Positions 57,038-61,479 of a DNA stretch of 64,000 bases are shown here, in pieces. Within the stretch, counting starts at the first letter, position 1; every line of letters begins with the position of its first letter. The stretch is from Haloarcula hispanica ATCC 33960 (GTDB lineage: Archaea; Halobacteriota; Halobacteria; Halobacteriales; Haloarculaceae): assembly GCF_000223905.1 (NCBI RefSeq), contig NC_015948.1, forward strand, positions 2,418,001 to 2,482,000, written 5' to 3'. Both the position numbers and the translations under genes were made by a program. Below the pieces are notes generated by a model, which was not told where the DNA came from, searched no databases, and saw only the letters and a list, made by a program, of their open reading frames with translations.

Positions 57038-57310
57038 ATGCAAATCGAGCTGCGGTTTTTCGCTAACTTCCGGGAAGCCGTCGGACAGAAGACGGTTCAG
57101 CGCGAGTACGAGAACGGCCTCCTGGCGGGTGACGTGCTCCGACAGCTCTCCGAGGAGTTCACCGAGATGGACCTGTTCGAGGACGGCGAACTGCGGGAGT
57201 ACCTGACGATTCTCCGGAACGGAACGGATATTGCCCATCTCGACGGGCTAGAGACCGCGCTGGAGGACGGGGACGAACTCAGCGTGTTCCCGCCAGTCGC
57301 CGGGGGGTAG
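57038..57310 (+). CDS. SAMP/MoaD ubiquitin-like protein
   Basis: 90 residues with beta-grasp pattern (MQIELRFFANFREAVGQKTV, TVLRN-type ILRNGTDIAHL), ending DELSVFPPVAGG. The C-terminal Gly-Gly is needed for adenylation by an E1-like protein and for sulfur carriage. It may serve as MoaD for molybdopterin/tungstopterin or as a SAMP for protein tagging. It converges with the second MoaD-like gene and lies about 2 kb from the AOR, whose cofactor needs MoaD. Confidence 0.9.
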   Translation: MQIELRFFANFREAVGQKTVQREYENGLLAGDVLRQLSEEFTEMDLFEDGELREYLTILRNGTDIAHLDGLETALEDGDELSVFPPVAGG

Positions 57311-57340: not shown

Positions 57341-57742
57341 TCAGCAGCAGAAGATGAACGGGAACATCAGCCCGACACGGTCGCCGGCTTCCAGTTCAGT
57401 GTCCAGTCCATCGAGGTGTTCGTTGAACTCGCCGTTGACCGCCACTCGCGCGTAGCATCTGGTCTGCTCGCCTTCGGGGTTTTTCGCCCAGTCGCCCGGC
57501 AAGTCCGCCATCTCCGGGGCCCAACCCTCGGTGGTGGCGTCGGCTTCGGTCTCCGCGATGAGCATATCGCCCACGTCGTACTCCTGAAAGAACGCGTCGA
57601 GGAAGTCACGTAGCGTGTTCCCTTCGAACGTGTATGACAGCGCCGGTTCGCCGACGACCCGGCGGACGTGGCCGGTACACCTGACCTCGACAGTGGTCAG
57701 GTCCGGTGCCGACGACTGTCGCTCTACTGTCTCACTGCTCAT
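57341..57742 (-). CDS. MoaD-like protein ending in Cys-Cys
   Basis: 133 residues from MSSETVERQSSAPDLTTVEV. MoaD/ThiS fold segments (VRCTGHVRRVVGEPALSYTF; CYARVAVNGEFNEHLDGLDT; AGDRVGLMFPFIFCC) are visible, but the C-terminus is FPFIFCC with no Gly-Gly (see findings). Its middle has a 30-residue insertion (TEADATTEGWAPEMADLPGD). Perhaps a MoaD variant that works with the AOR's tungstopterin or as a carrier in another way. Confidence 0.75.
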   Translation of the reverse strand: MSSETVERQSSAPDLTTVEVRCTGHVRRVVGEPALSYTFEGNTLRDFLDAFFQEYDVGDMLIAETEADATTEGWAPEMADLPGDWAKNPEGEQTRCYARVAVNGEFNEHLDGLDTELEAGDRVGLMFPFIFCC

Positions 57743-57833
57743 ACGTGTGTTATGACCCGCCGACACAAATCAGTAGAGACGAACATGTTCGCCCATCGCT
57801 GGGGTTTATTGGCCGCGAACTCTGTGTGGCGAT

Positions 57834-58202
57834 ATGGACGACATCGAACTGGGGATTCCGGCCGGAATCGTCGACTCGCTACCGCCGGACAGCGAGGACA
57901 CGAAACGCGACATGGAACAGGCCGTCGGTGGCTGGGAGCGGGAGCTCAACGCCGCGCTCAATACCGAAGAGCCGGCCAGCGCCGTCGTCGACCACATCGA
58001 GCAGTTCGAGAGCCGGTGGGAGGCCTACGACGAGTACGTTGTCGAACTTCGGGCATGGGGTCAGTCACCCATCTACGCGATGGCCTGGCGCGACCTCCAC
58101 GCCGCCGTCATCGCCCAGATTTACGACCACGAGGACTTAGACGAGCGAATCAATCGCGAGCGCAACGCCCGCATCGTCGACGACGGTATCCGGCCGGGAT
58201 AG
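57834..58202 (+). CDS. Hypothetical protein
   Basis: 122 residues, helical, acidic (MDDIELGIPAGIVDSLPPDS; EHIE-type IEQFESRWEAYDEYVVELRA; DERINRERNARIVDDG). A TATA-like gtttattgg lies about 30 bases upstream, so leaderless. No family recognised. Confidence 0.7.
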   Translation: MDDIELGIPAGIVDSLPPDSEDTKRDMEQAVGGWERELNAALNTEEPASAVVDHIEQFESRWEAYDEYVVELRAWGQSPIYAMAWRDLHAAVIAQIYDHEDLDERINRERNARIVDDGIRPG

Positions 58203-58329: not shown

Positions 58330-58584
58330 ATGGAGCGTGAACGGAGTTTTCGCGGCATCTCGGCACGGGCTGCTATCGGCTATCTGGAGAACCTGGGCGG
58401 CGAGCAACGCGGCGACGCGACCGTCGAAGGTGACGGCTGGGCAGCAACGCTCTCCGAGGAAAAAGTCGCTATCGGGCCGAGCCTCCAGCTCAACGAGGTG
58501 ACAATCCAGTTCGACGGCGAGCCGGAGACGCTGGAGCCGCTCATCGAGAAGTTCGCACAGAAAGCGATGCGGGCGGGCGGCTGA
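58330..58584 (+). CDS. Hypothetical protein
   Basis: 84 residues from MERERSFRGISARAAIGYLE. A helix then strands (DGWAATLSEEKVAIGPSLQL; VTIQFDGEPETLEPLIEKF) suggest a small alpha-beta fold. The TATA-like cgataagtttag lies about 30 bases upstream. It may share a transcript with the next gene, 10 bases on. Function unknown. Confidence 0.68.
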   Translation: MERERSFRGISARAAIGYLENLGGEQRGDATVEGDGWAATLSEEKVAIGPSLQLNEVTIQFDGEPETLEPLIEKFAQKAMRAGG

Positions 58585-58594
58585 CCGGGGCGCG

Positions 58595-58963
58595 ATGGCC
58601 GACCCGTCGTACCCCATCGAGGGGCAGATCGTCCTGCTGGCCGGCACACAGGCCAGCGTGCCGCTCGACCAGCTCCCTGACCTGCTCGGACGGGTCCAGA
58701 CGTATCTCCGGGCGAACCGTGCGAGCTACGACAGGAAGTACGAGCGCATCAGCGGCCCCAGAGAGGCCGATTACGTCTGTGCCGAGTCGGGCCGCTGGGA
58801 CAGTATCGGTACAGAACTCGGGCTGAGCGACCGCGAGCGGGACGCGGTTCGGCGGGCTCACGCCGCCCAGTTCGAGCGCGACGGCCGGCGGCTGGACAGA
58901 AGCGAGGAGTTCGAGACGACGCTCGAAATCAGGGACGTGCTGGCGGTCAGCTCCGAACCGTAA
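58595..58963 (+). CDS. Hypothetical protein
   Basis: 122 residues from MADPSYPIEGQIVLLAGTQA. Mostly helical with a DRERDAVRRAHAAQFERDGR segment. It starts 10 bases after its upstream neighbour and its end overlaps the opposite-strand gene by 17 bases. No family recognised. Confidence 0.7.
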   Translation: MADPSYPIEGQIVLLAGTQASVPLDQLPDLLGRVQTYLRANRASYDRKYERISGPREADYVCAESGRWDSIGTELGLSDRERDAVRRAHAAQFERDGRRLDRSEEFETTLEIRDVLAVSSEP

Positions 58964-59312
58964 TCGTCTCCAGCACGCGCTGGGAGAAGTCCGTCTCCGA
59001 GAGATCGCCGTTTTCGAGGGCATCGATCCACTCGCTGTCGACTGACCATTCGCCGAGTTCGGTGTCTTCGAGGTCCGTCACCGTCGCCTCGATGTCGACC
59101 CCGGACCAGTCATCGGCGTGCAGGTCCCGGAAGACGTTGATGACGCGACCGATTTCCCGGTGGGGAATAACGGCCGCCTCGTCGGCCGAAATCGACTCGT
59201 AGGTGAGCCGGTACGTCTCGCCCTCGTCGTCGAACTCGGTGACGTACACGCCGTGGCTGGTCAGTCGGGACTCTACCTGGAATTCGAAGTCGTCGATATC
59301 TTCCTTGCGCAT
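58947..59312 (-). CDS. Hypothetical protein
   Basis: 121 residues from MRKEDIDDFEFQVESRLTSH. Alternating strand and helix segments (VYVTEFDDEGETYRLTYE; DDWSGVDIEATVTDLEDTEL) recall haloarchaeal small conserved proteins of unknown role. It lies 36 bases upstream of the AOR on the same strand and could be co-transcribed. Confidence 0.72.
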   Translation of the reverse strand: MRKEDIDDFEFQVESRLTSHGVYVTEFDDEGETYRLTYESISADEAAVIPHREIGRVINVFRDLHADDWSGVDIEATVTDLEDTELGEWSVDSEWIDALENGDLSETDFSQRVLETITVRS

Positions 59313-59348: not shown

Positions 59349-61295
59349 TCAGTCGTCGCTCGGTGCCGCTGCGCCACCGGAGCTGACGCCGGTTCCGGGA
59401 CCGATGTCGATGCCAAGTTCATCGAGTTTCTCGTCGGGAACGACACCGTTCTCCCAGTCACGCACCTCGTAGTACTCGTCTTTCATCTTCGAGAGTTCCG
59501 CGAGTTCGCCCTCGGAACCGCCCTGTGCCGGCATCGCGTGCTCGTCGCCCTCCACGAACCGGTTTGGCAGGTCGTCGTCGGACCCGTCGAAGCCCGCGAG
59601 GTTGTTGTAGTACCGTTCGAGGTTGTAGACGCGCTCGCCGGCCTCCATCAGTTCCTCCTCGCTCACGTCCAGCCCAGTCATGCCGTTGTACTGCAGGACG
59701 TACTCCTCGATGCCTTCGGCGAAGGCGTTGAACTTGCAGATGTCGAAGGAGTCGCTGATAGCGTGCAGGTCCTGGAAGGTGGCACACAGCTCGCCTTTGC
59801 CCTCCCACTCTCGCGGGTCGACCTTCTCCGGGATGCCGAGAATCTCAGCCGCCGGCGTGTAGCCGCGCAGGTGACACGCGCCGCGGTTCGAGGTCGCGTA
59901 CCCGATTGCCATCCCCTTCATACAGCGCGGGTCGTAAGCCGCCATCGTCTGGCCCTTGACCGCCAGCGAGTTGGTGTGGGCATCGAACTCCTCTGCGAGG
60001 TGGTCCGGCCCCTCAGCGAGATGGTCCGCGAGTTCCGTCTCGCGGTGGGCGATCATCTCGATCATGTCGATCATCGTCTCGGCGTCGCCCCAGTCCAGGC
60101 CGTCGCCGAGCTCGTCGAGTTTGCCCTCCTCGGTCATCTCCATCGCCATCGCCATGGTGTTGCCAACGTCGATGGTGTCGACGCCGACGTCGTTACACCG
60201 GTCGAGCATCACGGCGATCTTGTCACGTTCGACGTGGCCGGAGTTCGGGCCGAGCGCCCACGCGGACTCGTACTCGTAGGACTCCGTGCGGACGTTCATC
60301 TCCTCGCCCTTGTGCATCGCCTGCACCTCGACTTCCTTCTTGCAGGCGACCGGACAGGAGTGACAGGTCGGCTCGTCGACCAGGATGTTCTCCCGGACGT
60401 TCTCGCCGGAGACGTTCTCCGAATCCATAATGCGCTCGCCGTCGCCTTCGGCGTCCGAGTACGAGCGCGTCGAAGAGTACTTCGCGTTCTTCGTCGGGAG
60501 GCCGTCCATCTCTTCGGTGAGGTTCATCAGGACGTTCGTGCCGTACATCGAGAGTCCGCCCTCGTTGGGTGCGGTCACGTCGGACTCCTGGATGACCTGC
60601 ATCGCCTGCTTGTGACCCTCCTGGAACGTCTCCTGATCCTTCGGCTTGGGCATCCGGGTGCTGGACTTGACGACGACGGCTTTGAGGTTCTTGTTGCCCA
60701 TCACGCAGCCGGTGCCGCCGCGGCCCGACGCGCGGTCGTCCTCGTTGATGATACAGGCGTACTTGACCTCGTTTTCACCGCCCTGTCCGATGGCCATCAC
60801 CGAGAGGTTCTTGCCCAGCGAGCCGCCCTCGATCTCGCCTTCGAGGTCGTCGATGGTGTCGTGGACGCCCTGCCCCCAGAGGTGCGAGGCGTCGCGCAGT
60901 TCCACTTCGCCGTCTTCAACGAGCGCATACACCGGCTCGTCGGCCTGGCCCTCGAACAGCAGTCCGTCGAAGCCCGACCATTTCAGCCGCGCTCCGGACC
61001 AGCCGCCGTGGTGGGAATCAGTGACCGTCCCCGTCAGCGGCGATTTCGTACAGATGGCGATACGGCCGCTCATCGTCACCTGTGTCCCCGTCAGCGGCCC
61101 GTTCATGAACGCCAGCAGGTTGTCCGGACCCAGCGGGTCCACGTCCGGTCCCTGATCGAAGACGTACTTCACGCCGAGCCCGCGTGCACCGATGTACTTT
61201 TTCGCGTCTTCCTCGTCGATACCTTCGTAGGCTACGTCCCCGTCCCCGAGGTCGATTCGCGCCACATGGTCCTGAAAGCCACCAAGGTCTGTCAT
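59349..61295 (-). CDS. aor: Aldehyde:ferredoxin oxidoreductase family tungsten enzyme, long type
   Basis: 648 residues from MTDLGGFQDHVARIDLGDGD. Cluster Cys residues are CHSCPVACKK (CxxCxxxC) and CKFNAF later. Tungstopterin-binding blocks RASGRGGTGCVMGNKNLKAV and MSGRIAICTKSPLTG are present. It is about 90 residues longer than the AOR at 39159 and diverges from it, so it likely has another substrate. A Gly/Ala/Ser-rich tail closes it. A start 30 bases upstream adds MFPAGEPCIT. Confidence 0.93.
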   Translation of the reverse strand: MTDLGGFQDHVARIDLGDGDVAYEGIDEEDAKKYIGARGLGVKYVFDQGPDVDPLGPDNLLAFMNGPLTGTQVTMSGRIAICTKSPLTGTVTDSHHGGWSGARLKWSGFDGLLFEGQADEPVYALVEDGEVELRDASHLWGQGVHDTIDDLEGEIEGGSLGKNLSVMAIGQGGENEVKYACIINEDDRASGRGGTGCVMGNKNLKAVVVKSSTRMPKPKDQETFQEGHKQAMQVIQESDVTAPNEGGLSMYGTNVLMNLTEEMDGLPTKNAKYSSTRSYSDAEGDGERIMDSENVSGENVRENILVDEPTCHSCPVACKKEVEVQAMHKGEEMNVRTESYEYESAWALGPNSGHVERDKIAVMLDRCNDVGVDTIDVGNTMAMAMEMTEEGKLDELGDGLDWGDAETMIDMIEMIAHRETELADHLAEGPDHLAEEFDAHTNSLAVKGQTMAAYDPRCMKGMAIGYATSNRGACHLRGYTPAAEILGIPEKVDPREWEGKGELCATFQDLHAISDSFDICKFNAFAEGIEEYVLQYNGMTGLDVSEEELMEAGERVYNLERYYNNLAGFDGSDDDLPNRFVEGDEHAMPAQGGSEGELAELSKMKDEYYEVRDWENGVVPDEKLDELGIDIGPGTGVSSGGAAAPSDD

Positions 61296-61479
61296 GGTAA
61301 TACATGGCTCTCCGGCTGGGAACAACTTAACGATTTGTGTTGCTAAACCACAGATATCCGACGTTTTCAGCGGTCGCGTCCCTGCGTGAGCGGGTCACAT
61401 CCGCGAGTCTGGTCCGAACCGTTTAAGACTCCGAACGGCAAACTCCGGGTAACTCGCTGGACGACGGGCACCAGCGGGC

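Follow-up and report, generated by a model that had tools for sequence, protein, structure and literature searches.

The DNA analysed here (the window, a stretch of 64,000 nucleotides from Haloarcula hispanica ATCC 33960) contains a minus-strand gene for a small MoaD-like protein, hereafter the target, which starts with an ATG at 57742 and whose product ends ...DRVGLMFPFIFCC-stop (Table 1). A reading of the window made from its sequence only had described a MoaD-like protein with a Cys-Cys tail in place of Gly-Gly, convergent with a SAMP-like neighbour that ends in Gly-Gly, and both descriptions are correct. The two genes are separated by 30 bp from stop to stop, and on alignment of their products the cysteine pair of the target falls in the glycine columns of the neighbour, with one extra tail residue. 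On its other side the target faces a group of small genes, the first three divergently transcribed, followed by the gene for an aldehyde ferredoxin oxidoreductase (AOR). The probable arCOG names of the genes at 57834 and 58330 are drawn from PMC2948915, for the former from its Table 1, and the name given to the target's family is a match to the description in the same source, not the result of an arCOG search.

Table 1. Genes and promoter motif around the target (positions within the window).
Feature	Position	Strand	Remarks
SAMP1/MoaD-type protein, Gly-Gly tail FPPVAGG	57038..57310	+	NCBIfam SAMP1 94.2 bits, above cut-off
Target, MoaD-like (beta-grasp) protein	57341..57742	-	133 aa, tail FPFIFCC; family fits description of arCOG00539
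Palindromic CGAA-N4-TTCG motif, CGAACATGTTCG	57780..57791	.	In the divergent promoter, flanked by the target on one side and the 57834 gene on the other
Small conserved AOR-cluster protein, shares the divergent promoter motif	57834..58202	+	Probably arCOG06307 or arCOG06309 by position
Small protein ending AMRAGG	58330..58584	+	Probably arCOG06308 (TBP-like fold, GG tail), inferred from PMC2948915
Small conserved AOR-cluster protein	58595..58963	+	
Small conserved protein, directly 3' of AOR in some genomes	58947..59312	-	
Aldehyde ferredoxin oxidoreductase (AOR), tungstopterin enzyme family	59349..61325	-	AFOR_N and AFOR_C

The target matches Pfam ThiS with 24.5 bits (cut-off 22.5), although only residues 97-126 are covered, and it stays below the NCBIfam cut-offs for moaD_arch (28.6 against 49.5 bits) and SAMP1 (25.3 against 60 bits). 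An AlphaFold2 model built from a 38-row alignment has a pLDDT of 83, and its best PDB matches in Foldseek are SAMP1 (2l52) and HVO_2177 (2m19), both with a probability of 1.00, with MoaD structures also among the best. The family match and the predicted structure point to the beta-grasp fold of ThiS, MoaD and SAMP proteins. Relative to the neighbouring SAMP1-like protein, the target carries an insertion of about 35 residues (residues ~62-96), in which W74, N88, P89 and G91 are invariant.

Relatives of the target were found by protein search in 247 of 391 Halobacteria genomes, one per species, or in 245 if two short and weak matches (G336 and G012) are set aside; beyond the order, a phylum-wide profile search gave just three weak matches of 27-30 bits, all in one family. 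Tails were read from fetched loci, which yielded 116 distinct rows, of which 111 were used. The penultimate residue is Cys in all 111 of these relatives, spread across the class Halobacteria, whereas the final position holds Cys in 89, Leu in nine, Phe in six, Val in six and Tyr in one, and thus always bulky. The C-terminal consensus, PF-[IMLVSF]-[FY]-C-[CLFVY], is strikingly hydrophobic; P128, F129 and C132 are invariant, and C132 is the sole invariant cysteine (Cys22 is present in 82/111 relatives and Cys133 in 89/111). What the family conserves is thus a Cys in the penultimate place with a bulky residue after it; the literal Cys-Cys end is not universal. On a FastTree tree from which the tail columns had been removed, the final position has changed between Cys and another residue at least 11 times and the penultimate residue not once; selection thus keeps the penultimate Cys as such, and of the position after it requires only bulk. 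Both cysteine codons (TGC in 69, TGT in 42) and all three stop codons are in use, so sequencing errors or frameshifts do not explain the tail. An origin from a Gly-Gly ancestor through point mutation or frameshift, the case that the earlier reading had named against itself, is ruled out by the absence of any Gly-Gly or terminal Gly end among the 111 relatives. Maturation by cleavage, if taken to uncover a Gly-Gly end, is rejected as well, since the target protein contains no GG anywhere.

Some copies depart from this pattern. The five rows left out comprise three genes broken by frameshift or truncation (L124, L126 and L129), one in which the open reading frame continues beyond PFVFCV without a stop after the tail (L125, which we count against our best explanation), and a tail-less paralogue, the second copy in L111. 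The latter, in genome G388, is encoded in tandem directly upstream of the target (L111:5507-5905, minus strand), is 45% identical to it, has no Cys tail and ends EPLTV. A further copy, L040 in genome G346, is broken by an in-frame TGA, and genome G222 has two equal-scoring copies on one contig (C2:6567-6968 and C2:219365-219766).

The distribution of the target follows that of AOR. A search of the 391 genomes with one query, the AOR of the window, gave matches at E <= 1e-30 in 304. AOR is present in all 245 target carriers, and none of the 87 genomes that lack AOR has a target (Fisher P about 1e-47, a value that ignores phylogeny), which bears out the link to AOR drawn earlier from proximity. 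Within the genus of the window, 19 genomes have both genes and five have neither; the losses of target and AOR are thus joint within genera. The target occurs only with AOR, as expected of an AOR accessory. The reverse does not hold: 59 of the 304 AOR-bearing genomes are without a target, and a profile search of these 59 returned no convincing copy, only one partial match of 20.9 bits. AOR therefore does not always need the target. To our knowledge, the physiological role of AOR in haloarchaea is not settled.

Other potential partners were counted in a sample of 80 genomes, part of a random draw of 105, which comprises 32 target carriers, 28 genomes with AOR only and 20 with neither; counts below are given in that order. 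MoaE is near-universal (32/32, 27/28 and 19/20; 78/80 overall) irrespective of the target, which disfavours a role in general molybdopterin synthesis. NirK is found in 22/32, 4/28 and 8/20, the TIGR04347 protein in 22/32, 7/28 and 10/20 (one match, in G320, lies below the family cut-off), and the NarG orthologue, counted by hand, in 7/32, 0/28 and 4/20. A partnership with NarG is disfavoured by its presence in only seven carriers, and NirK or the TIGR04347 protein alone is disfavoured as a partner, since each is missing from ten carriers and occurs in AOR-less genomes without a target. The NirK matches in the genome of the window (G000:C3:115757-116692) and in G211 each contain one in-frame TGA. 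The Gly-Gly-tailed protein at 58330 is found in 32/32, 27/28 and 0/20. Apart from this companion of AOR, AOR is the only group-specific partner present in every carrier. The companion itself tracks AOR almost perfectly (59/60 AOR-bearing and 0/20 AOR-less genomes in the sample) and is a candidate AOR partner with a ubiquitin-like tail on another fold.

Gene order elsewhere adds a second association. In 57 wide loci, sampled mostly at one per genus and counted by hand, the target adjoins AOR in seven (and in the window) and does not in the other 50. In 30 of the 57 it lies near at least one gene of a denitrification or radical-SAM set, one locus has both settings and 21 have neither. The set that was scored comprises NirK, a membrane protein resembling ccoN or NorB (for ccoN, the match behind the name scores far under the cut-off), the CGCGG peptide (TIGR03995), the TIGR04053 radical SAM protein, the TIGR04347 pseudo-SAM protein and the Htur_1727 peptide (TIGR04031); a greedy clustering of neighbours contained many antisense shadow ORFs and served only as a lead. 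In locus L110, for example, the pseudo-SAM, target and NorB genes follow one another on one strand, and a nirK-ahbD-norB region has been described in H. volcanii (PMC5746218). No sulfurtransferase was recognised next to the target. With 50 of 57 loci away from AOR and 30 near genes of this set, the partner of the target could lie among them. We have not adopted the reading of the target as a substrate of a neighbouring radical-SAM enzyme (TIGR04053 or TIGR04347), as those genes are accompanied by candidate peptides of their own (TIGR03995 and TIGR04031); furthermore, ahbD (HVO_2144) in the matching H. volcanii region has been assigned to heme synthesis (PMC5746218), and the TIGR04347 copy in the genome of the window (C3:1888202) is not linked to the target.

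The upstream edge of the palindrome CGAACATGTTCG lies 49 bp before the ATG of the target. CGAA-X4-TTCG has been described as an element that ahbD and the denitrification genes have in common in their promoters, and as essential for nirK expression (PMC5746218, the latter citing Hattori 2016). The site in the window is letter-identical to that of nosp and norp in Haloferax mediterranei, for which CGAACATGTTCG is reported to be the motif of the nos and nor promoters and its mutation to lower promoter activity, significantly for nos and nor (PMC10062603). The motif is found upstream of 100 of 114 distinct target copies. Counted by locus this is 51 of 58 (56/58 if one mismatch is allowed) and counted by genus 44 of 48, compared with 7% of random 350-bp windows from the same loci. 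By the same test it was absent upstream of AOR (0/32), the Gly-Gly-tailed protein at 58330 (0/27) and the SAMP1-like protein (0/28); relatives of the gene at 57834 have it in 7/19 loci. CGAA-N4-TTCG is mildly over-represented in the window as a whole (five seen against two expected), and CGAACATGTTCG itself occurs three times in the 3.89-Mb genome. One copy is the target promoter, the second lies between a DmsR-type regulator and a nar operon, and the third is at a CGCGG candidate peptide and a TIGR04053-like radical SAM gene beside a bat-type regulator (L175; own genome C3:664000-678000), where the NarG, CGCGG and TIGR04053 names come from reading translated ORFs, not from a family search. 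A palindrome at this promoter-like distance would place the target in the CGAA-N4-TTCG anaerobic (denitrification) regulon. Both the motif and the denitrification or radical-SAM neighbourhoods were missed by the sequence-only reading.

The target thus appears to be regulated like a denitrification gene, yet occurs only with AOR, and the simplest joint reading is that of a factor for AOR that is made on entering anaerobic life. AOR-type enzymes are oxygen-sensitive tungstopterin enzymes. We tentatively propose that the target is an anaerobically induced accessory of AOR, in which the tail cysteine replaces the Gly-Gly thiocarboxylate, most likely as a persulfide. The protein would be made as the cell shifts to anaerobic, denitrifying growth, and would keep the beta-grasp fold but, with Gly-Gly gone, not undergo adenylation and thiocarboxylation of the MoaD type. 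The chemistry would instead fall to the penultimate cysteine, presented on a hydrophobic tail in the place of the Gly-Gly tail, which may carry sulfur as a persulfide in the manner of DsrC and pass it to AOR or its tungsten cofactor. We suggest a persulfide because the terminal glycine that MoaD requires for adenylation is absent, there is no internal GG to expose and a penultimate tail cysteine is the design of DsrC. The fold, the conserved tail, the co-occurrence with AOR and the promoter motif are read from sequence; anaerobic induction and an action on AOR are inferred, and the chemistry itself is a guess. Among single mechanisms, delivery of persulfide sulfur to AOR or its cofactor would be the most likely on our analysis, still well short of an even chance overall. 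The more specific claim, of a ubiquitin-fold sulfur carrier that exchanges the Gly-Gly thiocarboxylate for a penultimate-Cys persulfide, needs no E1 and switches on a tungstopterin enzyme when anaerobic denitrifying growth begins, is doubtful as a whole.

The evidence from promoters and neighbours also fits a target that serves denitrification and not AOR maturation, for instance by using its tail thiol to protect AOR, or a different cofactor enzyme, from nitric oxide or to repair it, with AOR co-occurring as the enzyme in need of a guard. The denitrification motif, the nearby NirK, NorB-like, halocyanin, TIGR04053/TIGR04347 and CGCGG genes, and the enrichment of NirK with the target among AOR-bearing genomes (22/32 against 4/28) argue for this role; however, ten of the 32 sampled carriers have no NirK, and eight of the 20 AOR-less genomes have NirK but no target. 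We regard it as unlikely, and as the strongest of the alternatives.

The remaining explanations turn on the tail and the fold, and each is improbable. The hydrophobic C-terminus would suit a membrane anchor, in which the penultimate cysteine is alkylated by a prenyl-like or diphytanylglyceryl group and the beta-grasp domain is drawn to the membrane, and a C-terminal CC is the signal for prenylation of eukaryotic Rab proteins. The CC is not kept in 22/111 members, however, AOR is soluble in other archaea, and we know of no C-terminal prenyltransferase in haloarchaea; lipidation has little probability in our judgement. A regulatory decoy, which would bind MoaE or the E1 enzyme UbaA uncharged and so, under anaerobiosis, redirect molybdopterin between the enzymes that use tungsten and those that use molybdenum, is similarly hard to credit: the fold match to SAMP1 and MoaD, the presence of MoaE in every sampled carrier and the promoter motif would all agree with it, but the invariant penultimate cysteine would be needless, and AOR-less genomes that have MoaE do not carry the target. 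Delivery of a metal ion, tungstate-derived or another, to AOR by the tail cysteines would account for their invariant member and the AOR linkage, but it is also a poor prospect, since one cysteine only is invariant, the frequencies of Cys22 and Cys133 leave no fixed multi-Cys site, and replacement of the last Cys in 22/111 members weakens the earlier suggestion of metal binding by the CC pair.

What is understood of ubiquitin-like sulfur carriers and modifiers centres on the glycine at their C-terminus and its chemistry. The family described here, spread over a whole class, retains the fold, has an invariant cysteine in place of this glycine, is found only in genomes with AOR and bears a denitrification motif. 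It offers a concrete and cheap test case of whether such a fold is able to carry sulfur, or to function in some other way, without an E1 enzyme. The finding also ties haloarchaeal AOR to anaerobic respiration.

The family itself has been recorded before. Makarova and Koonin (2010; PMC2948915) listed arCOG00539 as a beta-grasp family of Halobacteria with a double-cysteine C-terminus, and also noted, near MoaD, a TBP-like protein that ends in GG (arCOG06308). The arCOG00539 entry there comes with no function or context. The target very probably belongs to this family, the difference being that the motif is described there as CC, whereas 22/111 members here end C-[LFVY]. Within the literature searched, arCOG00539 is not named in any further paper and no link of such a protein to denitrification was found. 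The CC tail was thus already in print, and the context and regulation of the family appear to be undescribed in that literature. New here are the co-occurrence with AOR, the denitrification promoter motif, and the denitrification and radical-SAM neighbourhoods.

The target resembles parts of several known systems. With the CGAA-N4-TTCG genes (nos, nor and nir of H. mediterranei, nirK and ahbD of H. volcanii, under control of the NarO type) it shares the same palindrome close upstream of its start, although the sources cited for them do not list it among denitrification genes, and AOR is without the motif. MoaD, SAMP1 and SAMP3 have the beta-grasp fold that is predicted for the target, with the tail in the same place, and an AOR-associated member of the MoaD/SAMP type is described in T. 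kodakarensis (TK1065; PMC11323500). The target differs from them in lacking Gly-Gly, in its long insertion with W74, N88-P89 and G91, and in scoring below the moaD_arch and SAMP1 cut-offs. Finally, DsrC and TusE provide the model for the tail: the penultimate Cys of DsrC is described as strictly conserved on a C-terminal tail and as its only persulfide site (PMC3397948), and the target has an equally strict cysteine in this position. In contrast, the target has no TIGR03342 match, as an NCBIfam scan to E 0.1 returned only moaD_arch and SAMP1, and its best PDB matches are beta-grasp proteins; the resemblance to DsrC is one of design only, and not of kinship.
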